Part shown: piece after piece, positions 12,254-26,457 of the stretch
How positions within the stretch are numbered: the first letter of the stretch is position 1
Layout: each line of letters opens with the position of its first letter
From: Methanobacteriota archaeon
GTDB lineage: Archaea; Thermoplasmatota; Poseidoniia; Poseidoniales; Poseidoniaceae
Length of the DNA stretch: 45,151 nucleotides
Assembly (NCBI GenBank): GCA_002719815.1
Contig: PBET01000015.1
Span: forward strand, 1-45,151
Direction: 5' to 3'
The notes under the pieces: generated by a model
Database searches by the model: none
Told to the model about the DNA's origin: nothing
What the model saw: only the letters and a program-made list of their open reading frames with translations
Position numbers and translations under genes: made by a program

Positions 12254-12275
12254 ATTTCGACCAAGAGGGATGGGG

Positions 12276-15200
12276 ATGTTTCTAAAAGCGTTAGAGATGG
12301 AGAACTTCAAATCGTTTCGCGGCGAGGTCGTTATCCCTCTCGATCGTGGATTTTCTGCCATCACTGGTCCGAATGGTTCAGGGAAGTCCAATTGTGGGGA
12401 TGCGATTCAGTTTGTTCTCGGGCCAAAATCAACACGAACCATTCGCGCTCAAAATACAAAGCAACTGATCTTTAACGGTGCAGAGGGCTACAAACCGGCT
12501 CGAGGTTGTGTCGTAACACTCGTCTTTGGCAATCCTGTATTGTCGAATGGCCGTCGCCGACTTCCTATCGAGAACGACGAAGTTCGTATGACCCGTTCCA
12601 TCCGTCTGACCGCTTCGGATAATGTCGTATCGACCTATCTTCTCGATGGTGAAGAATCATCCCAGAAGTCGTTCCACCGTCTACTCAATGCTGCAAACGC
12701 TCGTCCGGATGGCTACAACATTGTCCTTCAAGGCGATGTCACAGGACTTGCTCGAATGACGCCTATTGAGCGACGTAAGGTCCTCGATGGTGTTGCAGGT
12801 GTGACCTCTTACGATGATGAAATTCGAAAGGCGAAGAAGCAGAAAGAAAGCGTTGATTCATACATTGAACGTATCGGTATGTTGCAAGAGGAGCAACAAG
12901 TTCGCCTCAAGGAACTTGAACAAGAGCGAAAGGTTGCCATGAAGGCGCAATCGATTACGGTTGAGTTAACGACATCCCGTGCACAGCGCTATCAAGCAAT
13001 GTATGCGAGTCTTGGGATGGAATTGGAACACCAAATTGCTGAGCAACTTCGGTTTGTTGAAGAGGCAACAGACCTTGAAGAACAGGTAAAGGCAGGAAGC
13101 AAAACCTTGGTTGAACTCGACGATCGAATCGGCGAAATTCAGAAGCAAATCGACGCATTGCTTGGTGATGAAGGCGATGGATTGTCGAAGGCTATCCATG
13201 ATTTGAGAGTTCAACTTGATCGAGATAAGGACCGAATCGAGGATTCTCTCCAAGCCAACATCGATGACGGTGATGAGCGAGAACAGGTGCTTGCACGCTA
13301 TGAAGAAGCAGAGGTTGCATTGAATGCCTTGCTCGAAGAGGCAACCACAAGTCAACACCAGATGGAAGAAGCACAACGTATGCTGGATGAAGCCCAAGCC
13401 GAGGAAGAGAAGGTACGGGCGCTTCTTGAAGGCTCTGGAAAGAACCATGCTGAACTCAATCGTTCACTCAGTGAAGCCATTGCAGGCCTTGAGAAAGCCA
13501 AGGAAGCGGTTGCAGCCGCACAATCGGATGTTGACCGAACGGCGGCGCAAGCAGAGTTAGTCGAAGCCAACCTCGCCAAAGCACAAGAGGCAGCAGAGGA
13601 ATCTCGCCTCGAACTTGAAGAAAAGGAAGCAGAATTCAAGGCATTGGCTGGTGGAAAGAAGGTTGATCGTTCCTCACTCACAAAGAATATTCTCGAAGCG
13701 GAACGTTCTGAGAGCCGCCTCTTGGAAGAGGCTGGCGCCGTCGAGCGAAAAATGACCGAGACGGAACGACAACTTCGTTCAGCTCGTGCTGAACTTGAGA
13801 ACAAATCCAATTCGAAGGGAATGGCTGGCGGTGCAGCAGCAATTCTTGGTGCACGAGACAGAGGTGAAATCAAGGGTATCATTGGAACAATTGCTGAGTT
13901 GTGTGCACCAATCGATTCGGAACATGAAACCGCTCTTGCTACCGCATTCGGAGGAGCAATGACGTCGGTTGTTGTCGATTCGGACGAAGTTGCTGCAGAA
14001 GCGATTCGTTGGTTAGCGCAACGAAAAGCGGGTCGTGCGACCTTCCTACCACTCAACAAACTCACGACAAGTCGTGCAGGTGGAAAGGCGATGATGGTTG
14101 CAAGGAAACCTGGCGTGATTGGATTTGCGTATGAGTTGCTTGAATATGATGCACGTATTGATACGGCCATTAAGTTCGCTCTGCGTAACACATTGATTGT
14201 TCAAAACATGGACATTGCCCGCCAAAACATGGGTGGTGTTCGCCTTGTCACCATGCGTGGCGATGTGACCGAAGCAGGCGGTGCGATGGTCGGTGGTTCT
14301 CGACAGCGAATGTCGGTTAGTTTTGGTGGCGGTATTGCAGGAGCAAAAGAAGTTGAGCGACTCACTGCGGAAATTGAACGTCTTCGTTTGATTTCAGATA
14401 CTGTTTCAGCTGCACTTGCAGATGTTCGAAAAGAGCAACAGACGTTACGTCAGCAAATTAACGAACTCGCCAACGAAGAAGGTGCAATCCAAAGAGAGAC
14501 TTTGCGTGCAGAAGTTACGACCTTCAAGAAAACCCATTCGAAAGCCATCGGTGTTGTTCAAGGTTTGAAAGAAGATCTTCAACGCTTGGAAACCTTGGCA
14601 AGTTCTCAACTTGAGTTGTTGGATGAGGCTGAGTCAAAGGTTGCTGATGCAGAAGTTTTACGCGCAAGCGCTCAAACTGCGCTCGAAGATGCAAGTCCGC
14701 AACATCTCAAAGATCGATTGCATGAGTGTACTGTAAAACGTACGCAAGCAGAAGGTATTCGTTCGAATGCTGATGTTTCACTTCGTTCTATTTCAGAACG
14801 TAAAAATTTGCTTACTTCTTCGGTATCCTCCGAAAAGGAACGTCTCGGTCAAATCGATATGGCCGTTAAGGAACGCTTGGAAAATATTGCAACACTCAAG
14901 CAGAATGTTGCTGAAAATAACGAAGTTCTTGCTGAAAAAGAAGCAGAACGTGCTCAGTTCCTTGAAGAGAACAAAGGCTTGGAGGATGAACGGATCGAAC
15001 TGGTCGAAGAACGAGCAAGCTTGAATTCGACACTTACGCAAAAGGCTTCACAGGCTCGAAGCCATCGTACGCTTTCAACTGAACTTGAGCGAACGATTCA
15101 AGCAAAGCGAAAGGAGCTGTATGATGTTGAAATGGAAATGGGGGCAGTTGGTATTCAAGCTCCTGAAGAAGGAACTGTGTTGGATTCTGTCGCCGATATC

Positions 15201-16148
15201 GATCGACGTATACGCCGTCTTGAGCGTCGACTTGAGGAATTTGGAGCAGTCAATATGCGGGCGATTGAACAGTACGATGCTGTTGAACAACGTTTGGAGG
15301 AAATGGAAGGAGATTTCAAGAAACTCCAAGACCGCAAGAAGCATCTCATCGATGTAGCAGAACGTCTCGAAGAACAACGAAAGGTTCGCTTAATCGCCGT
15401 TCTTGAAAAGGTGAATGAGAATTTCAAGAAGGTCTACAAATCGCTTAGCAATGGTGGCCGTGGTGAACTCTATCTTGAGAACAAGGAAGAACCATTCAAA
15501 GGAGGACTCGAACTATGGGCGCAGCCAAAGGGCAAGTCATCCAACGTTACTCGTCATCAACTTTCAGGTGGTGAACAGTCCGTTGCTGCCCTTGCACTCA
15601 TCTTTGCCATCCAGGATTACGACCCAAGCCCATTCTACTACTTTGATGAAGTTGACCAAAACCTCGACAGTGTGAATGCGGAATGCATCGCAAAGATGTG
15701 TCGAGAGCGAAGTAAGGCTGCCCAATTCATCATGGTCACGTTGCGAAAGGTTTCACTGCAACTTGCCGATCATCATATTGGAATTACCCATGGTGGCGAT
15801 GGATGTAGTCGTCGAATCATTGATTTCGATCAGGAGCAAGCCATCGCTCTTGGAGAACAAGCACTCAAGGAAGCGGAATCAGCTGCTGCGAAGAATGCAC
15901 AACGAGCGAAGGAAGAAGAGGAAACGCTGGCAGAAATGCCTCGTGTACCTGAAGCACTTCCTGCTCCGAGCAGCCTCGGTGGTTTGCTCAAGCACATGCA
16001 AGAGGATGAGAGCCTTTCATCGCTGGCTGAGCGAACTGCTGAAACCAATGAAGACATCGAAGAGCGTTCCGCCCTTGTCGATGCTCTTTCAGAACTTGAA
16101 ACTGAGGAATCGGATTCACAAGAAGCGACTGTAGAACTTGATGAGTGA
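12276..16148 (+). CDS. smc: Chromosome segregation protein SMC
   Basis: ATPase of the condensin-type complex that loops and segregates chromosomal DNA; 1290 residues. The N-terminal ATPase half starts MFLKALEMENFKSF with Walker A GPNGSGKS at 31-38. Coiled coil runs from about 155 to 520. The hinge (about 530-660) begins GEIKGIIGTIAELC. The second coiled coil extends to about 1020. The C-terminal ATPase half has signature LSGGE at 1096-1100 and Walker B FYYFDEVD at 1120-1127. After the ATPase domain (from about 1180) comes an acidic tail of about 110 residues not usual in SMC. ATG 12270 is also possible, but 12276 matches family starts and sits 7 nt after GAGG. The gene overlaps or abuts scpA. 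Confidence 0.97.
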   Translation: MFLKALEMENFKSFRGEVVIPLDRGFSAITGPNGSGKSNCGDAIQFVLGPKSTRTIRAQNTKQLIFNGAEGYKPARGCVVTLVFGNPVLSNGRRRLPIENDEVRMTRSIRLTASDNVVSTYLLDGEESSQKSFHRLLNAANARPDGYNIVLQGDVTGLARMTPIERRKVLDGVAGVTSYDDEIRKAKKQKESVDSYIERIGMLQEEQQVRLKELEQERKVAMKAQSITVELTTSRAQRYQAMYASLGMELEHQIAEQLRFVEEATDLEEQVKAGSKTLVELDDRIGEIQKQIDALLGDEGDGLSKAIHDLRVQLDRDKDRIEDSLQANIDDGDEREQVLARYEEAEVALNALLEEATTSQHQMEEAQRMLDEAQAEEEKVRALLEGSGKNHAELNRSLSEAIAGLEKAKEAVAAAQSDVDRTAAQAELVEANLAKAQEAAEESRLELEEKEAEFKALAGGKKVDRSSLTKNILEAERSESRLLEEAGAVERKMTETERQLRSARAELENKSNSKGMAGGAAAILGARDRGEIKGIIGTIAELCAPIDSEHETALATAFGGAMTSVVVDSDEVAAEAIRWLAQRKAGRATFLPLNKLTTSRAGGKAMMVARKPGVIGFAYELLEYDARIDTAIKFALRNTLIVQNMDIARQNMGGVRLVTMRGDVTEAGGAMVGGSRQRMSVSFGGGIAGAKEVERLTAEIERLRLISDTVSAALADVRKEQQTLRQQINELANEEGAIQRETLRAEVTTFKKTHSKAIGVVQGLKEDLQRLETLASSQLELLDEAESKVADAEVLRASAQTALEDASPQHLKDRLHECTVKRTQAEGIRSNADVSLRSISERKNLLTSSVSSEKERLGQIDMAVKERLENIATLKQNVAENNEVLAEKEAERAQFLEENKGLEDERIELVEERASLNSTLTQKASQARSHRTLSTELERTIQAKRKELYDVEMEMGAVGIQAPEEGTVLDSVADIDRRIRRLERRLEEFGAVNMRAIEQYDAVEQRLEEMEGDFKKLQDRKKHLIDVAERLEEQRKVRLIAVLEKVNENFKKVYKSLSNGGRGELYLENKEEPFKGGLELWAQPKGKSSNVTRHQLSGGEQSVAALALIFAIQDYDPSPFYYFDEVDQNLDSVNAECIAKMCRERSKAAQFIMVTLRKVSLQLADHHIGITHGGDGCSRRIIDFDQEQAIALGEQALKEAESAAAKNAQRAKEEEETLAEMPRVPEALPAPSSLGGLLKHMQEDESLSSLAERTAETNEDIEERSALVDALSELETEESDSQEATVELDE

Positions 16149-16158
16149 GGTGAAGAAA

Positions 16159-17331
16159 ATGGTGCAGCAAGGACTCGATCAGTGGTTTTTGCGCCAGGAT
16201 GTTATCGATCAACTCTTACAAAGTGGTGATGATGACCTTGAGGGAATCAGTGCTTATGCTGACCGCATTCTTATGATTGCACAGACTGAGGAAGCAGAGC
16301 ATCAGACACTTGAAGACCCCTTCGACCGTAGTGTTGCTCTGGTCTTATCACTGGTCAATAGTGAAGGTCTGGACGCATGGAACATCGATTTGACATCTTT
16401 CCTTCGTCAATTTACCAAGCGAGTCAAATCACAGGCGAAAAATCTCGATCTCCCTGCTTGTGGACGTCTCATTCGAATGGCCTGGGAGGTTCTTAATTAC
16501 CAGGCAGCACATCTGTTTGATCGCATTCAGTATCAAGATATGGAGGATGAATGGGACATGGATTTCGAATTTGGCTGGGAGGCTGAATACGATGACCATG
16601 AATTTCATTTCACCAACACAGTCCTGCAAGGTGGTGCTGACGATGTGCTTGAGACACTCTTTGATGAACGAGTGCGTAGGGATGAAGGCCGGCCAGTCAC
16701 GCTCGGTGAACTGCTCTCAGCCCTCAAGGACGCAGCAGATGATGCGGATGCCTTGAAACTACGAGAAAAGAACCGCGTTGCACATGCTATCGAAGTTGAA
16801 GAAATGATTTCCAACGTCGGTGGCCGAATGCATAATGAGGATCTCGATGGTGACATCGAACGTTGTTGGAACGCATTACGGCAAACGACTCAGGATATGG
16901 ACTCGAGCAATGTTCCGCTCAAATCGGTCATCAAAACGATGATTCCTCTTCTTGAAGCAACGTTTGGTGAAGTACCTGAAGGCTATGGTGATGATGCACG
17001 TGTAAGCTCGTTCATAGCAGGCCTTTTCCTCACGCATAAGGGTCTTGCTTCCATTACACAAGGGAATCAGATTGATGATGTCATCATGATTGAGGACTTG
17101 TGGCCACAATTGGCAACGTTTGAGGACGTCCTTGCCGCAACAATCGAAGCCGATCAGCAGGCTCAAGAAGCACGTGAATCATTAAAAACGGGTTCAACGT
17201 TGCATGCTGAGCGACTTCAGGAACGTGCTGAAAAGGCACGACTTGCTGAAGAGAAAGCAAAGGCAAAACTCGAAAAGGAACAAGAAGAAAGCAAACCTGA
17301 TTTTCAAGAGCATGAATGGTTGGTAGAATAG
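16159..17331 (+). CDS. scpA: Segregation and condensation protein A (kleisin)
   Basis: Kleisin that bridges the two SMC heads; 390 residues from the chosen start. The region DPFDRSVALVLSLVNSEGLD and the following WNIDLTSFLRQF (about 50-85) is the N-terminal ScpA pattern that docks on the SMC neck. A winged-helix-like C-terminal part with an ATFEDVLAATIEAD-type segment follows, then a charged coiled tail. In-frame starts at 16138 (TTG) and 16141 overlap smc. ATG 16159 has a GAGGTGA ribosome-binding site 5 nt before it (16147-16153) and is preferred. It lies directly between smc and scpB, as in bacterial operons. Confidence 0.88.
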   Translation: MVQQGLDQWFLRQDVIDQLLQSGDDDLEGISAYADRILMIAQTEEAEHQTLEDPFDRSVALVLSLVNSEGLDAWNIDLTSFLRQFTKRVKSQAKNLDLPACGRLIRMAWEVLNYQAAHLFDRIQYQDMEDEWDMDFEFGWEAEYDDHEFHFTNTVLQGGADDVLETLFDERVRRDEGRPVTLGELLSALKDAADDADALKLREKNRVAHAIEVEEMISNVGGRMHNEDLDGDIERCWNALRQTTQDMDSSNVPLKSVIKTMIPLLEATFGEVPEGYGDDARVSSFIAGLFLTHKGLASITQGNQIDDVIMIEDLWPQLATFEDVLAATIEADQQAQEARESLKTGSTLHAERLQERAEKARLAEEKAKAKLEKEQEESKPDFQEHEWLVE

Positions 17332-17339
17332 GTGGTACA

Positions 17340-17939
17340 ATGACTGAACTTGCACTAGAAACACTTCTTGAAGCAACCATGTTTGGTTCGGGTAAATCTC
17401 TCTCAGTCAAAGAATTGTCAGAAGCGCTTGGTTATGAGGAAGAGGAGATTGCAGAAGCGCTTACTTCACTGCAAACAACACTGAAGCGAAGGCGTGGAGG
17501 CGCTTTACGTATTGTTGAGATTGGTGGCAAGTGGGCGATGGAAGTACGTTCCGATGTTGCAGATCATCTGCCAAAAGAAACCAAGACTGAGATGCCCAAA
17601 AAGCTCCTCAAAGCTGCAGCGCTTATCGCTTATCATCAGCCAATGCCTCAATCAAGATTGGTTGATTTACTCGGTCAGAAGGCCTACGATTATGTTCGTG
17701 AACTTTCACAATATGGAATGATCATGCGTCGACGTGATGGAAATACCAGAAGGCTGACGACAACTCGACGATTCTCTGAAGCGTTTGGCTGTCCTCATAC
17801 CGACCTGAGAAAAGTCCGAAAATGGTTCAGAGAACAAGTTTCTGATGCAGGGCTATTCGATGATATGGACTCAGAAGCACTCAAGGATGTTGGAGAGGAT
17901 GGATTGGTTCAAGCCACATTGCCTCTAGAAGAAGAATGA
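17340..17939 (+). CDS. scpB: Segregation and condensation protein B
   Basis: The KITE subunit that binds the middle of ScpA; 199 residues. It has two winged-helix domains. The first starts LALETLLEATMFGSGKSLSVKELSE; the second contains LIAYHQPMPQSRLVDLLGQKAYDYVRELSQYGMI, close to the ScpB signature of bacteria. The upstream ATG 17316 lies inside scpA. ATG 17340 follows GGTGGT (17331-17336) and gives the expected N-terminus. The stop at 17939 directly abuts the end of the convergent HMG-CoA reductase gene with no spacer. Confidence 0.92.
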   Translation: MTELALETLLEATMFGSGKSLSVKELSEALGYEEEEIAEALTSLQTTLKRRRGGALRIVEIGGKWAMEVRSDVADHLPKETKTEMPKKLLKAAALIAYHQPMPQSRLVDLLGQKAYDYVRELSQYGMIMRRRDGNTRRLTTTRRFSEAFGCPHTDLRKVRKWFREQVSDAGLFDDMDSEALKDVGEDGLVQATLPLEEE

Positions 17940-19235
17940 TTACTTCCTCAACTCTTCGAGGATTTCAGCCACTCTTGTCTGCGTTTTCGGACCTTCTTCT
18001 GTGATGAGACGTTGAGCGACGATTTCGATTTCATCGCCAATGGCTCCTGCACTAACGGCCATGTTCTTTGCATGCAGGCGCATGTGTCCTTTTTGGATAC
18101 CACTGGTTGCAAGAGCGCGAAGTGCTCCAAGATTTTGTGCTAAGCCTGCTGCGGCCATAATCGATGCTAATTCTTGTGCGGATTCAACGCCTAAGATCTC
18201 CAGATTCGTTCGGGCAACTGGATGTACTTTTGATGCTCCACCAACAATACCGACCGCCATCGGTGTCTCGATGGTTCCAACAAGGTTGCCGTTTGCATCC
18301 TTTTCCCAATGTGTCATTGATCCGTATCTTCCTTGATGAAATGCCACATAAGCATGGCAACCTGCTTCAACGGCTCTCCAATCCTGGCCACATGCTACTG
18401 CTACAGCAGAAATGCCGTTCATGACGCCCTTGTTGTGCGTAGCTGCTCGATATGGGTCAGCCATTGCGAAGTGATGTGCTTCGAGGATTCCATCGATAAT
18501 CGAAGAACCCTCTCCAGCATCGCCAGAATTGCTCATTTCTTCTGGCGTAAAGGTCGCAGATACGCGAGCAAGTCGCTGCGTTGCAAGATTGGAAAGAATT
18601 CTCAACAATGAACGGCCGTTCGTGATGTTTTCCAATTCAGGTGCAAGAAGTTCTGCCATCGTATTGACAGCATTCGCTCCCATTGCATCGCGGCAATCAA
18701 CGTGGATATGGACGATGAGCATCGGTCCTGAAAGGGTTTCAATTGACCGAGTTGTAATGTCCTTACATCCTCCTCCCAATCGAATCATTGTTGATGGTAG
18801 GCTGTTTGCTAAAGCCATCAATTCGCTCTTTTGGTCCTCAATTTGTTGGACAGCAACCTCATGATCCTCAATATCGAGAAGTTGAATTTGTGCAATCATC
18901 ATTGGTCCGTCACTACTCGAAACGAATCCGCCTGAGGCATGGCATCGCTTTGCCATGTTTGACGCAGCTGCAACAACACTGGATTCCTCGAGACAAAATG
19001 GGACGACGTAATGCTTTCCGTCGAGAATAAAGTTCGTTGCAACACCCACTGGTAGGGACATTGTCCCAATGACATTCTCAATCATTCGATCTGCGGCGGC
19101 ATCATCCAATTCTCCATTGCTTGCAAGAGCCTCAATTTGCTCATCGCTAAGATTTGCAAGTTTCGCAATCATCGCTCGACGTTCCTCAACATCGAGTTTG
19201 TAGAAGCCCTTGAGGCGGCTGTTGTCAACAGGCAT
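17940..19235 (-). CDS. mvaA: Hydroxymethylglutaryl-CoA reductase, class II
   Basis: Converts HMG-CoA to mevalonate for archaeal isoprenoid lipid synthesis (family knowledge). It has 431 residues with no membrane anchor. Catalytic positions of the Pseudomonas mevalonii class II enzyme are all matched: E83 in CLEESSVVAA, K269 in HNKGVMNGI, D285 in CGQDWRA and H384 in QKGHMRLHAKN. ENVIGTMSLPVGVA (53-66) and DAMGANAVNTMAE (183-195) are the substrate- and cofactor-binding motifs. The class II form, known in Archaeoglobus and Thermoplasmatales, points to an old transfer from bacteria. The start ATG is preceded by GAGGAG (19241-19246 on the opposite strand). Confidence 0.95.
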   Translation of the reverse strand: MPVDNSRLKGFYKLDVEERRAMIAKLANLSDEQIEALASNGELDDAAADRMIENVIGTMSLPVGVATNFILDGKHYVVPFCLEESSVVAAASNMAKRCHASGGFVSSSDGPMMIAQIQLLDIEDHEVAVQQIEDQKSELMALANSLPSTMIRLGGGCKDITTRSIETLSGPMLIVHIHVDCRDAMGANAVNTMAELLAPELENITNGRSLLRILSNLATQRLARVSATFTPEEMSNSGDAGEGSSIIDGILEAHHFAMADPYRAATHNKGVMNGISAVAVACGQDWRAVEAGCHAYVAFHQGRYGSMTHWEKDANGNLVGTIETPMAVGIVGGASKVHPVARTNLEILGVESAQELASIMAAAGLAQNLGALRALATSGIQKGHMRLHAKNMAVSAGAIGDEIEIVAQRLITEEGPKTQTRVAEILEELRK

Positions 19236-19293
19236 GGTGTCTCCTCTTAATCGATACCAAGTGTTGAGGGTGAATGAATCAATCGGATGAAAT

Positions 19294-19346
19294 TAACGGG
19301 ATTAACGCTTTAATTAACGCGTTATATTTGCGTTAGGCATGCGTTA
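19294..19346. repeat. Six-copy GCGTTA/TAACGC hexamer array in divergent promoter region
   Basis: In the 218-bp gap between the HMG-CoA reductase start and the AAA+ operon, TAACGG (19294), TAACGC (19303 and 19315) and GCGTTA (19319, 19330 and 19341) form a nearly mirror-symmetric array. The three right-hand copies are spaced exactly 11 bp apart, about one helical turn. The two central copies fuse into the palindrome TAACGCGTTA (19315-19324). TATA-like stretches TTATATTTG and TTATTTAAG fall between the copies. It looks like a multi-site operator for a cooperative regulator. A replication or plectonemic role is also conceivable. No protein partner is identified. Confidence 0.7.
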
Positions 19347-19453
19347 TTTAAGCCCAATAATGCTTGATGGCAGTACGATTAACGTCTCATAACAGGTTTG
19401 TACAACCTCGTATCTTCGTGAAACGTCATATACTTGTTCGAAGTTGCTCGGTC

Positions 19454-21181
19454 ATGCATGGAAATACCATCGATTTTGGCTTCCCTTCTCTAAGCGAAGA
19501 TCCATTTTCATCAAGTCCACTCGATAAGGATGAACTCGATTTACTCGTAGGTCGGCATGGTATGTTTGAGGAACTTGAACGAAAGATTACCTTCAAATCA
19601 GCAGATCGGATGTTACTCGTTGGTGAATTTGGTTCTGGAAAAACCTCGTTTATGCAGTGCTTGAGTGTACGAACAAACCTTCATTTGAGCATCGATCGTA
19701 TTGCTCTCTCAGAACCCGGAATCGAGTTGCTAAAGGACATGTATGCCCAATTAATCGATGGCTCACCCCCTCATGATTATCAGAAATTGAGCCGTGATTT
19801 GCAACGTATGCTTCATGATTCACGCCAAATGCTTCCACTGATTACCATTGATGCTGATATGGCTGATGTCTCATCTCTGGAAGCGTGCCTTCGTTCATCA
19901 TTGCCGTTTTTTGAACGGCTTCCTGCACTTATCCTCATCGCCATCAATCCACGGCAACAATCGCTCATCTCGGAACAACTTCTGCAACGATTCGAAGTAC
20001 GCAACATGGCGAGTTTGGACATCGATGGAATCAAGGCCCTCGTAGAACGAAGGATTGCAAAAGCCTCTTCTCAGCCTTATTCACTCACTTCAGAGGATGC
20101 GAATCGACTGCTTCAATTGAGTCAAACAGGCCAACCTGGAGCGATTATACGAGTCCTACGTCATGCTGTTTCTGGAAATTATGTTGCTCCACAGCGAACT
20201 GAACCGGTTCCGATGGAATCCTTGCCCCAAGAAACAACCTTGCCTCTTGATGAGGTTGAAGTTGAGCAAAACATTGAACCAATACTTGACGATGTGATTC
20301 AAGATGCTATTGAGGATGATGAAAATGAACCTGATTCAGAGGATTGGGAAGAAACACCGGGCATGACACAAGCTACTGGATTTGATCTTGATTTCGGTAT
20401 TTTGGATGAACCTGTTGAAGAACCACTTGAAATCTTCGACGAACATCCTGAAGAAGCGCCTGAAGCGTCCGTTGATGATGCCTATGTTACCGAAGAGAGT
20501 CTGCCCTTCTCTGGCGTTTTTGGAGGATTGAGGAACAGGCGACGAATTGTGAACAATGACTTGCAATCAGCACCAGAGGGTCAGTTTAAGGCAACAGAAA
20601 AGGGGACTGCGTTTTGGTCGGCTGAAGAATCGAATCTCCCTGAAGAGGTTCTCGAAACCAGTGACGAGGTTGCTGATGAATACGTTCCTGAATTCGATGA
20701 GCAAATTGATATCGACGACGAGGTGGACTTGATCGGTTTGCAAGAGATTCATGCTTCTGAAACCGTCGTTTCTGAATCAGCTACAATTGAGACATTTGCT
20801 CGACTTCTATCGCAGTTGATTCAGCCATCGAATCAGGGGCTCGAAGGTGATAGCGATTTAGTCGATCGTCTACGTGCTCTCTCAAGGCCACGATTTGCGC
20901 AAAAGGAGGAGCATGTACTTGATGTTGCAGTTCTTAGTTCACTCACATCATCTGAGTCCATCGTTGTAGCAGAAGCCAAGAAACGAAATCTTTCTCCTTC
21001 GGACATTGCGCTCTTGAACCGACTCTCAATCAAACGTGCGCGTCTTTCTCAAATTTGCAATCGATTGCATAAGGCAGGAATCCTTCATGCTCGCATGGCG
21101 GGTCGTTCTCGAATGTTTGGACTTACACGTAGCGCCCTTGCCCAATTGATTGCTTGGGGCCTTGTTGGAGGTGATGAATGA
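19454..21181 (+). CDS. Orc1/STAND-like AAA+ ATPase with acidic linker and C-terminal winged helix
   Basis: A 575-residue protein of unknown role. An N-terminal AAA+ domain (about 25-260) has Walker A GEFGSGKTS at 57-65 and a Walker B-like ITIDAD near 130. A sensor-1-like ILIAINP and a GQPGAIIRVLRHA sensor-2-like helix follow. Residues about 270-480 are highly acidic and low in complexity. Residues about 490-575 look like a MarR-type winged helix (LSIKRARLSQICNRLHKAGI). This resembles the Orc1/Cdc6 layout with an added acidic arm. The frame opens earlier (TTG 19364, ATG 19367), but ATG 19454 has an ATATAC TATA-like box 24 bp upstream (leaderless type), so it is preferred. It heads an operon with the two following genes. 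Confidence 0.7.
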   Translation: MHGNTIDFGFPSLSEDPFSSSPLDKDELDLLVGRHGMFEELERKITFKSADRMLLVGEFGSGKTSFMQCLSVRTNLHLSIDRIALSEPGIELLKDMYAQLIDGSPPHDYQKLSRDLQRMLHDSRQMLPLITIDADMADVSSLEACLRSSLPFFERLPALILIAINPRQQSLISEQLLQRFEVRNMASLDIDGIKALVERRIAKASSQPYSLTSEDANRLLQLSQTGQPGAIIRVLRHAVSGNYVAPQRTEPVPMESLPQETTLPLDEVEVEQNIEPILDDVIQDAIEDDENEPDSEDWEETPGMTQATGFDLDFGILDEPVEEPLEIFDEHPEEAPEASVDDAYVTEESLPFSGVFGGLRNRRRIVNNDLQSAPEGQFKATEKGTAFWSAEESNLPEEVLETSDEVADEYVPEFDEQIDIDDEVDLIGLQEIHASETVVSESATIETFARLLSQLIQPSNQGLEGDSDLVDRLRALSRPRFAQKEEHVLDVAVLSSLTSSESIVVAEAKKRNLSPSDIALLNRLSIKRARLSQICNRLHKAGILHARMAGRSRMFGLTRSALAQLIAWGLVGGDE

Positions 21182-22230
21182 TGACTTGGTCGGTAAGTTG
21201 GTCATGGCAAGCACCATCGAGAATTAGTGCAATTGAATCTGTAAGTGGACACCTGTGCGTGGCATATGGTCTTGAATTGACGCTCTTCGATGCGAAAAAT
21301 GAGATTCAATGGCAACGGAGTATGCCGTTTAAGGCTCATGCTATCTGCAACGGCGATGGGCGCATTGGCGTTCTTGCTGCGCATGCATTCTATTTGCTTA
21401 ACACAGTTGATGGTTCAATGGTTCATGAAGGTCGTTCTTGTCCAGGCGGTTTCCTTCATCTCCTCAATCGACCGGGTGGTGGCTGGGTCGTATCCGGACG
21501 AGACGGGAATTTGCATCTCTTCGATGCGAACGGTATCGGTATTCGACGTATTCAATCTGGAATCGTTCGCCGCTTAATCGGTTGGCTTGACAGAGAACAT
21601 CTGCTATGGCAAGATGCCAGTGGTGTTGTCTATTGTGGCCAAATTGCGCAACAAGACAAGCGCAGAGTGGTTGATTCAACGGTTTGGAGTTGGGTTTCAC
21701 CATTGATCGATGGGCGAACACTCCTGCAATCTGCTGATGGTCAATTGTGGGATGGCATTCCACATCCTTATGGATGGGATCGCCTCGAACGCATTGAAAT
21801 TGACTCTCTTGAACCATTGATGGCGACACGCGTAGCCGATGGATGGTGGGTGTTAGGAATTGAAGGCCACCTTGACCATATGACCTCGAGTTCTGAAGAA
21901 ATTCGGGTTGGAGAAGGAATGGAACTTGGAGATCTCTTGGTCCGTCTTGGTCCAAATTCGATGGTGACTTGTCGTCGAGATGGACTCGTCCGTCGATGGG
22001 TCGCTCCTCATCTTGCAGAACAACAACGCCGACATCGACAGAAAGAGGCAGCTGATGCGAAGTTGGCCCGCTCATGGGATGAGCGACGTCAGTTGTTTGA
22101 ACGAGCGCAAACCGCTGAAGATGAGGGTCGCCTCTCCCGTGCAGTAGAATTGTATGAAGCACTCGGCCGAATGGATGATGTTCAACGCTTGTTGCGACGT
22201 CAAAAAGGAGGTGGAGATACTGAATCCTGA
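21181..22230 (+). CDS. Beta-propeller-like protein with C-terminal helical (TPR-like) tail
   Basis: A 349-residue protein of unknown function. Residues 1-275 are repeated beta-strand units with motifs such as GHLCVAYGLELTLFDAKN, GWVVSGRDGNLHLFDANG and MVTCRRDGLVRRWVAP, typical of WD40/PQQ-type propeller blades. A charged helix follows (about 280-310). Then comes a helical hairpin, LFERAQTAEDEGRLSRAVELYEALG, like one TPR repeat. No signal peptide is seen, so it is likely cytoplasmic. The Shine-Dalgarno GGAGGTGA (21167-21174) lies inside the upstream gene. ATG 21181 at 6 nt is favoured over ATG 21178 at 3 nt. Overlap with the AAA+ gene suggests the products work together. Confidence 0.7.
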   Translation: MTWSVSWSWQAPSRISAIESVSGHLCVAYGLELTLFDAKNEIQWQRSMPFKAHAICNGDGRIGVLAAHAFYLLNTVDGSMVHEGRSCPGGFLHLLNRPGGGWVVSGRDGNLHLFDANGIGIRRIQSGIVRRLIGWLDREHLLWQDASGVVYCGQIAQQDKRRVVDSTVWSWVSPLIDGRTLLQSADGQLWDGIPHPYGWDRLERIEIDSLEPLMATRVADGWWVLGIEGHLDHMTSSSEEIRVGEGMELGDLLVRLGPNSMVTCRRDGLVRRWVAPHLAEQQRRHRQKEAADAKLARSWDERRQLFERAQTAEDEGRLSRAVELYEALGRMDDVQRLLRRQKGGGDTES

Positions 22231-25269: not shown

Positions 25270-26457
25270 TCATGTGCGTTTGAGTTTTCGAGCAACACGC
25301 CCTTCAATACGAGCAGCAACATCCATCGGGAGAGCATGTGGCATGGAGATGTGTGTTGTTCGCCCTCGCCCTTCGCCTACCGTATCGACTCGCGTTGCAA
25401 TGATGTTCAATGTCTCAATTTGCTTGAGAAATTTCCAAACCGTCGTGTGGCTGCGTGGTTTGACTTCATATTCCTCGCAGACGACCGCATAAATCGATTC
25501 AACATCTTTGCTGGTCATGAATTCGGCCTTTCGCAACCTTCTGCAAATACCGAGTAGGACCAACATCGAGTGCCCCGATAACTCATCAAGGACATCCTCC
25601 GGCATGACTTGAGGGACATCTCGTGCTTTCGTCTGGACATGTTCCGCCATGATGGTCCTGTGACCATCCGATTCAGCATGCTCAACAGCTGCTTTGAGCA
25701 ATTCGATCACTTGTCGAGCATCACCAGATGGGGCTGCAGACGTGGCGATAAGTTTCAGAATTTCTTCATCCCATGAGTTGGAATTCAAAGATGCTTCAGC
25801 TCGTTGACGAGCAATGGCAAGAAGCCCCTTCATTTCGTACGGTGGAATCGGTAGATGATTGGTATGTCCAAATCTGGAAATAACAGCGTTCTCGAGAACA
25901 TCGAGGACTTGCTCTTGACTAATGAGAATCAATGAAAGCGTCCCACTGCCTTCCTGGTCCTCATCGATTCGAAGCAACTGATAGATCAGGTCATTCCCTG
26001 ATTTTCTCAACAAGTGGTCGACCTCGTCCAAGACGATAATGAGATGACGTCCATTGTTCCTCAGCAATTTTCTGAGACTGCTCAACAACTCGCCCATCGA
26101 GAGCCCTCGATCGGGATGACCAGGGTCCAAAGACTGAACGATGCGCTGTGCAACACGCACATTGGTTGTTGCATTCCGACAGTTGATGTGAACGCTTCGA
26201 ATTGGCCGTTTATTCCGTAGATGATGCTCAATATCGCGACAAAACGTTCGTGCAAGGAGCGTTTTCCCACTTCCAACCGGGCCGGTAATGACAACATTTG
26301 CACTTCCGTTTGGATGAGCGATGGAATGGAATTTCCCTGCAAGTGCCTCTTGGATATCTTCTCGACCGACCATGACTTCTGGAATGTAGTCAAAGTCGAG
26401 GGGGTCAGGATGCAACAAGATGAATCCTGAACCAATTCGGTCGAGATAGTCGCTCAT
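25270..26457 (-). CDS. orc1: Orc1/Cdc6 replication initiator
   Basis: Origin-binding AAA+ protein that recruits the MCM helicase; 395 residues, normal for archaeal Orc1/Cdc6. Walker A GPVGSGKT is at 59-66. Walker B LIIVLDEVDHLL is near 140. Sensor 1 is LSLILISQ, and ISRFGHTNHLPIPPY matches the initiator-specific motif region. GDARQVIELLKAAVEHA is sensor 2. The C-terminal winged helix (about 300-395) has SHTTVWKFLKQIETLNII. It follows dph2 by 67 bp on the same strand. No repeated origin-recognition boxes were seen beside it. Confidence 0.95.
   Translation of the reverse strand: MSDYLDRIGSGFILLHPDPLDFDYIPEVMVGREDIQEALAGKFHSIAHPNGSANVVITGPVGSGKTLLARTFCRDIEHHLRNKRPIRSVHINCRNATTNVRVAQRIVQSLDPGHPDRGLSMGELLSSLRKLLRNNGRHLIIVLDEVDHLLRKSGNDLIYQLLRIDEDQEGSGTLSLILISQEQVLDVLENAVISRFGHTNHLPIPPYEMKGLLAIARQRAEASLNSNSWDEEILKLIATSAAPSGDARQVIELLKAAVEHAESDGHRTIMAEHVQTKARDVPQVMPEDVLDELSGHSMLVLLGICRRLRKAEFMTSKDVESIYAVVCEEYEVKPRSHTTVWKFLKQIETLNIIATRVDTVGEGRGRTTHISMPHALPMDVAARIEGRVARKLKRT

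Follow-up and report, generated by a model that had tools for sequence, protein, structure and literature searches.

A conserved array of YGTTA boxes beside an AAA+ winged-helix gene of Poseidoniales as a candidate helically phased control site

A stretch of 45,151 nucleotides from a member of the Poseidoniaceae (contig PBET01000015.1 of assembly GCA_002719815.1), the whole of which is referred to here as the window, carries a dense cluster of short repeated boxes between two divergent genes, and this cluster raises the question of which gene it serves and what kind of protein would bind it. A sequence-only reading of the locus described six GCGTTA hexamers within 53 bp, one of them with a mismatch, and these are present at 19294-19346. 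The three plus-strand copies at 19319, 19330 and 19341 are spaced by exactly 11 bp as claimed, the minus-strand copies at 19315, 19303 and 19294 follow one another at 12 and 9 bp, and the fused palindrome described at the center is TAACGCGTTA. The mismatched copy is the one at 19294, which reads CCGTTA. Two further sites, TAACG at 19380 and TAACA at 19390, were missed by that reading and occupy positions that are equally conserved. In the aligned Poseidoniales loci the core of the box is YGTTA, with a preferred G before it and a preferred A after it. The features of the locus are listed in Table 1.

Table 1. Genes, boxes and predicted promoter elements at the locus, in window coordinates; conservation is given for 37 Poseidoniaceae loci.
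Feature	Position	Strand	Remarks
HMG-CoA reductase, divergent neighbor	17940..19235	-	PF00368, E 8.4e-111
Site L3, TAACG (6-mer CCGTTA on -)	19294..19298	-	HMG-CoA reductase-proximal; offset kept in 57% of loci
Site L2, TAACG	19303..19307	-	9 bp from L3; 95% of loci
Site L1, TAACG	19315..19319	-	left half of palindrome TAACGCGTTA; 100% of loci, rows selected on the palindrome
Site R1, CGTTA	19320..19324	+	right half of palindrome; anchor for distances; 100% of loci, by selection
Site R2, CGTTA	19331..19335	+	11 bp from R1; 86% exact, 100% with one mismatch (TGTTA)
Site R3, CGTTA	19342..19346	+	11 bp from R2; 73% exact, 100% with one mismatch
Spacer, array to distal pair	19347..19379	.	fixed length, drifting sequence; the only length change among compared genomes is 11 bp
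Distal site D1, TAACG	19380..19384	-	offset +60; 78% exact, 95% with one mismatch
Distal site D2, TAACA	19390..19394	-	10 bp from D1; the TATA-like box follows about 35 bp downstream; offset +70, 38% exact, 95% with one mismatch
Predicted BRE/TATA of the AAA+ gene, GAAACGTCATATAC	19420..19433	+	conserved TGAAA..TCATATAC in footprint
Degenerate AAA+ ATPase, joined by a long disordered linker to a C-terminal winged helix	19454..21181	+	candidate array binder
WD40-like beta-propeller protein	21178..22230	+	second operon gene in Poseidoniaceae

The cluster is denser than any that chance models of the window produced. The window contains 6 CGTTA/TAACG cores in 58 bp, a density that was never equaled in 900 Markov simulations of the window (order 1-3), where the maximum was 4 and the typical value was 2. 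Among 1.37 Mb of Poseidoniales DNA that was sampled, this locus alone has three cores within 40 bp, the reversed-motif control yields 33 such triplets, and a second cluster of the kind that a regulon would feature was not found. Pairs of the form CGTTA-N6-CGTTA outside the locus are rare and have no conserved place. Full-text literature searches for the motif, for Poseidoniales replication origins and for Poseidoniales Cdc6 returned nothing.

Conservation of the array was determined from HMG-CoA reductase orthologues found in 57 of 60 related genomes, together with named public genomes, and the removal of duplicates left 59 distinct loci, 37 from Poseidoniaceae and 22 from Thalassarchaeaceae. 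The array is present upstream of HMG-CoA reductase in both families. The Poseidoniaceae rows were aligned on TAACGCGTTA and the Thalassarchaeaceae rows on CGTTA-N6-YGTTA; because these anchor boxes both selected and aligned the rows, the independent evidence comes from the other boxes only. Over the 59 loci of both families the box positions are fixed and the bases in between drift, and the comparison indicates that the boxes are under selection. In the aligned footprint that includes the spacer of Table 1, the information content is 1.2-1.7 bit per base over the boxes versus 0.35-0.62 at offsets +35 to +54. Boxes in Poseidoniaceae lie at offsets -26, -17, -5, 0, +11, +22, +60 and +70 from the anchor (percentages in Table 1). 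In the Thalassarchaeaceae loci the plus-strand boxes are at -42, -30, -19, 0 and +11 and the minus-strand boxes at -27 and -16 (100%), and one distal box follows at +88. A gap of 5 bp separates the minus arm from the plus arm in one family; in the other family this gap is 11 bp longer, at 16 bp. The exact template TAACG-N7-TAACGCGTTA-N6-YGTTA was additionally scanned over 195 genomes of the class, and it occurs as one copy per genome in 71 of the 95 Poseidoniaceae genomes. It is absent from Thalassarchaeaceae, whose box layout differs, and from all 21 genomes of the outgroup family f3, which we take to be Marine Group III; the reversed control never occurs. No array is found upstream of HMG-CoA reductase in the outgroup or in Bathyarchaeota.

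The boxes are about one helical turn apart within each arm. Considered together, all sites have a poor helical phase coherence (mean resultant 0.1-0.45 for periods of 10, 10.5 and 11 bp), so the phasing claim rests on the repeat spacing within the arms and on the spacer lengths, and phasing does not imply that every site is on one face of the helix. The sequence-only reading had proposed a cooperative multi-site array for protein binding, and this proposal is well supported at the sequence level by the order-wide box positions, the same 11-bp period and the length-locked spacer. Neither of the two outcomes that this reading had named as refuting it, a missing array in orthologous regions and clusters just as frequent in shuffled sequence, was observed.

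The distances from the array to its two flanking genes indicate where it belongs. Between the anchor and the TATA-like box of the AAA+ gene there are 105-106 bp (mean 105.3, sd 0.5) in 34 Poseidoniaceae loci and 119-123 bp (mean 122.5, sd 1.2) in 21 Thalassarchaeaceae loci, the TATA-like boxes being sequence predictions. The distance from the anchor to the HMG-CoA reductase ATG varies from 59 to 106 bp (mean 78, sd 7.9) in Poseidoniaceae and from 109 to 217 bp (mean 149, sd 48.6) in Thalassarchaeaceae. Because the distance is constant to the AAA+ promoter and varies to HMG-CoA reductase, the array is assigned to the AAA+ promoter. The distal boxes have the same register in the two families, since the start of D2 (+70, TATA-like box at +105) and that of the Thalassarchaeaceae distal box (+88, TATA-like box at +123) each precede the TATA-like box by 35 bp. 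A promoter operator is recognized by a constant distance from a core promoter, and this locus has such a distance, with the core promoter itself represented by a predicted TATA-like box.

A set of 50 genomes for which the coordinates of both the template and the AAA+ gene were at hand, and which partly overlaps the 59 loci, gives the same picture. The template is 118-120 bp from the AAA+ start in 46 of them and 130-131 bp in the other 4 (G092, G122, G128 and G159), which all belong to one genus. In these four genomes the extra 11 bp lie between the array and the distal pair, and the distal pair shifts together with the promoter; the four may represent one ancestral insertion. The order HMG-CoA reductase, array, AAA+ gene is kept where SMC-ScpAB is gone or where the Cdc6 block is inverted. 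The identity of the divergent neighbor as HMG-CoA reductase, as named in the sequence-only reading, was confirmed by its PF00368 match. In most Poseidoniaceae genera the outermost box is 55-58 bp from the HMG-CoA reductase ATG, which makes joint control possible in that family. The earlier suggestion of joint control over lipid synthesis and the AAA+ operon is supported in its AAA+ half, where the register is kept in every measurable lineage, and is not supported in its HMG-CoA reductase half, where the distance varies by genus. A conserved block, GCATGAACCAATCGGA, is located at 19260-19290 between the array and HMG-CoA reductase in the genus of the window, and it may mark the start site or the leader of HMG-CoA reductase.

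The AAA+ gene starts at ATG 19454, and not at 19364; this ATG is in a conserved register and predicts a short leader or none. The gene is found throughout Poseidoniales and had 0 matches at E 1e-10 in the other genomes of class- and phylum-wide samples. The Thalassarchaeaceae genome G051 is without both the AAA+ gene and HMG-CoA reductase, probably due to an assembly gap. The array and the gene are co-distributed, both occurring throughout Poseidoniales and neither in 21 outgroup genomes of the same class. An AlphaFold2 model of the protein (mean pLDDT 71, pTM 0.45) features an AAA+ module at residues ~35-240 and a winged helix at ~490-570, separated by a long linker of mostly low confidence. 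Foldseek neighbors of the model include MuB, RFC and Orc1/Cdc6, the last in an Orc1/Cdc6-origin complex, and a single hhalign comparison of the module with the AAA+ module of Poseidoniales Orc1/Cdc6 aligned 217 columns (96%, E 4e-9). A search of solved structures by sequence returned no meaningful relative. On the model, the module is of the initiator/clamp-loader type and not of the ParA or tubulin type.

Two features of the Orc1/Cdc6 family, a Walker A Lys with a Walker B Asp-Glu and a Cdc6_C winged helix directly after the lid, do not hold for the AAA+ protein. Of 48 AAA+ proteins, 28 have Arg in place of the Walker A Lys and none has the Walker B Glu (the residue after the invariant Asp is A, F, Y, V or H), and a profile search found no Cdc6_C match. 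TIGR02928 is matched by 6 of the 48 members, with a best E of 1.6e-4. The winged helix is MarR/ArsR-like, based on weak matches to ArsR/MarR-type profiles, and no other part of the protein is as well conserved, the remainder being 20-32% identical when distant genera are compared. Its invariant residues are P515, S516, D517, R528, R530, S532, Q533, G542, G550, R551 and R553, which include putative DNA contacts in the recognition helix (R528-x-R530-x-SQ) and in the wing (GR-x-R). Since these residues are invariant and the Walker motifs are degenerate, DNA binding appears to be better conserved than ATP hydrolysis.

Several other genes of the neighborhood were considered. The beta-propeller gene overlaps the end of the AAA+ gene, and its product has C-terminal helices. 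The propeller was rejected as an obligate partner of the AAA+ protein, since in most of the Thalassarchaeaceae examined no propeller gene was found behind the AAA+ gene. The MarR gene of the window was likewise rejected as the source of the array binder. Genes for SMC, ScpA and ScpB form a run at 12270-17939, on the far side of HMG-CoA reductase. A second Orc1/Cdc6 paralogue is located at 25270-26457, about 6 kb from the array and not adjacent to it. This paralogue is ~25-29% identical to Cdc6-1, was found in 9 of 9 Poseidoniales genomes tested and is always linked to the array; a second copy was found in 1 of 8 outgroup genomes tested. In locus L171 (G044:C3) the block Cdc6-2 / ORF / eIF2gamma / PIN / MarR has the opposite orientation to that in other genomes, and the order HMG-CoA reductase, array, AAA+ gene, propeller is unchanged.

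These comparisons make it very likely that the array is a control site of the AAA+ gene. The more specific explanation preferred here, in which we place about even confidence, is that of a helically phased operator or upstream activating array of the AAA+ gene, with the AAA+ product as the candidate binder. The array would be a cis-regulatory module of the AAA+ promoter, and D1 and D2 would be a promoter-proximal pair of the same boxes. The array, the distal pair and the TATA-like box have a fixed spacing that tolerates a length change of one turn, and a YGTTA-specific protein could cover the array cooperatively and contact the distal pair. This protein is probably the AAA+ winged-helix protein itself, which would bind through its recognition helix and wing, and the degenerate AAA+ module might serve nucleotide-controlled self-assembly along the array; these two steps are less certain. 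The protein would in this way regulate its own gene and, in Poseidoniaceae, possibly HMG-CoA reductase as well. We infer the sign of regulation, the cooperativity and the identity of the protein alike. Linkage and co-distribution point to the AAA+ protein as the candidate factor, and the neighboring Orc1/Cdc6 paralogue shares both. One site cluster per genome is unusual for a regulator, AAA+ modules are atypical of archaeal one-component regulators, and a purely autoregulatory role would leave the real job of the AAA+ protein unexplained.

Other explanations assign the boxes to replication. They could be initiator-binding iterons for the Orc1/Cdc6 paralogue or the AAA+ protein, marking a second, lineage-specific origin. 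There is one such element per genome, the second Orc1/Cdc6 gene is within ~5-7 kb of it in every Poseidoniales genome tested, even where the block is inverted, 7 of 8 outgroup genomes tested are without a second copy, and the AAA+ module is initiator-like in both its Orc1/Cdc6 alignment and its structural neighbors. Archaeal origins can also be without ORBs and have a linked initiator, as in Sulfolobus oriC3/WhiP (PMC4010727). The unique locus, the order-specific Orc1/Cdc6 within a few kb and the initiator-like module make an origin a serious rival. However, the fixed register with the AAA+ promoter is an operator signature, and the ORB sequence TTCCANTGGAAA with up to 2 mismatches shows no excess in the window (25 found, 22 expected). 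Several genomes, from both families, instead have canonical ORB-type elements at a distance of 5-6 kb from the other Orc1/Cdc6 gene. Skew, corrected for gene strand at four-fold sites, was sampled in G033 (at the Cdc6-1 locus and in 40 stretches of 20 kb), G053:C8 and G031:C26. In none of these three genomes did GC or AT skew switch at the array, a weak test given that the ORB locus of G033 fails likewise. The AT skew of G033 changes sign near 0.5 and 1.2 Mb, with the array at 694.9 kb and the ORB locus at 1.824 Mb, so the changes match neither Cdc6 locus and skew is uninformative here; the pattern reflects either unusual origin use or errors of assembly order. A second origin is considered unlikely. 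A somewhat less improbable, though still doubtful, variant is a single-copy chromosomal nucleoprotein center, origin or partition-like, formed by the AAA+ winged-helix protein and the Orc1/Cdc6 paralogue, whose boxes would also control the AAA+ gene. The ORB-like elements, for example TTCCAATGGAAACAGAGGGGGG and TTCCAGTGGAAATATGTAATTAAATG, are ~500 bp apart where paired and are located at L155:1664 and 2165, L162:1731 and 2231, L163:12489 and 13019, L157:12851 and L158:2544. They lie ~5-6 kb from the Cdc6-1 gene and make a promising candidate for the main origin of replication.

The two remaining alternatives look to the other side of the array. It seems quite improbable that the array is an operator of HMG-CoA reductase, through which a sterol/isoprenoid-type regulator with no relation to the AAA+ protein would control mevalonate synthesis, leaving the AAA+ gene as a bystander. 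HMG-CoA reductase is always the divergent neighbor, and the outermost site lies, in most Poseidoniaceae, 55-58 bp from the HMG-CoA reductase ATG and so at the place expected of a core promoter; however, it is this distance that shifts by genus in the ranges given above and the AAA+ TATA-like distance that does not, outgroup and Bathyarchaeota HMG-CoA reductase genes have no array, and the MarR gene, a possible factor, went undetected at the majority of the Thalassarchaeaceae loci examined. A centromere-like or SMC-loading site, with phased repeats beside their own NTPase/DNA-binding operon and acting with SMC-ScpAB, has the least to recommend it and is highly unlikely. The single copy per genome, the two opposed arms of direct repeats with a period near 11 bp, the NTPase fold fused to a winged helix and the SMC-ScpA-ScpB genes across HMG-CoA reductase would fit such a site. 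Against it, the array is kept in five Thalassarchaeaceae loci (L064, L070, L079, L164 and L165) where SMC-ScpAB was not found beside it, and the putative initiator/clamp-loader module without a Walker B Glu is of neither the ParA nor the tubulin kind.

The operator reading of the array can be compared with known systems. Autoregulatory operators of the MarR/ArsR type similarly have their boxes between divergent genes and keep them in register with the promoter of the regulator itself, but they consist of one or two inverted repeats, whereas the array has six to eight boxes, mostly 11-bp direct repeats in opposed arms, and its candidate regulator has a degenerate AAA+ module, unlike MarR/ArsR-type regulators. 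Plasmid partition centromeres such as parC of R1 and tubC consist of phased direct repeats beside the operon of their binder and have a double use as an operator. The array differs from these in being chromosomal and order-wide and in its AAA+ initiator-like fold, in place of an actin, tubulin or ParA NTPase. Archaeal origins linked to Orc1/Cdc6 share with the array repeated boxes beside an AAA+ winged-helix gene, with Orc1/Cdc6 nearby (PMC4010727). The boxes of the array are, in contrast, unrelated to ORB and length-locked to a promoter, no skew switch was seen, and ORB-type elements are found elsewhere.

The array is of a known general kind, and its sequence, geometry and partner are new. 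To our knowledge, next to nothing has been charted of the cis-regulatory elements of Marine Group II, a group of archaea abundant in the ocean. An element that is present once per genome, is kept box by box and changes its length by one turn offers a clean, testable protein-DNA pair in an uncultured lineage, and the order-specific AAA+ winged-helix protein, together with the Orc1/Cdc6 paralogue, may reveal lineage-specific chromosome handling.
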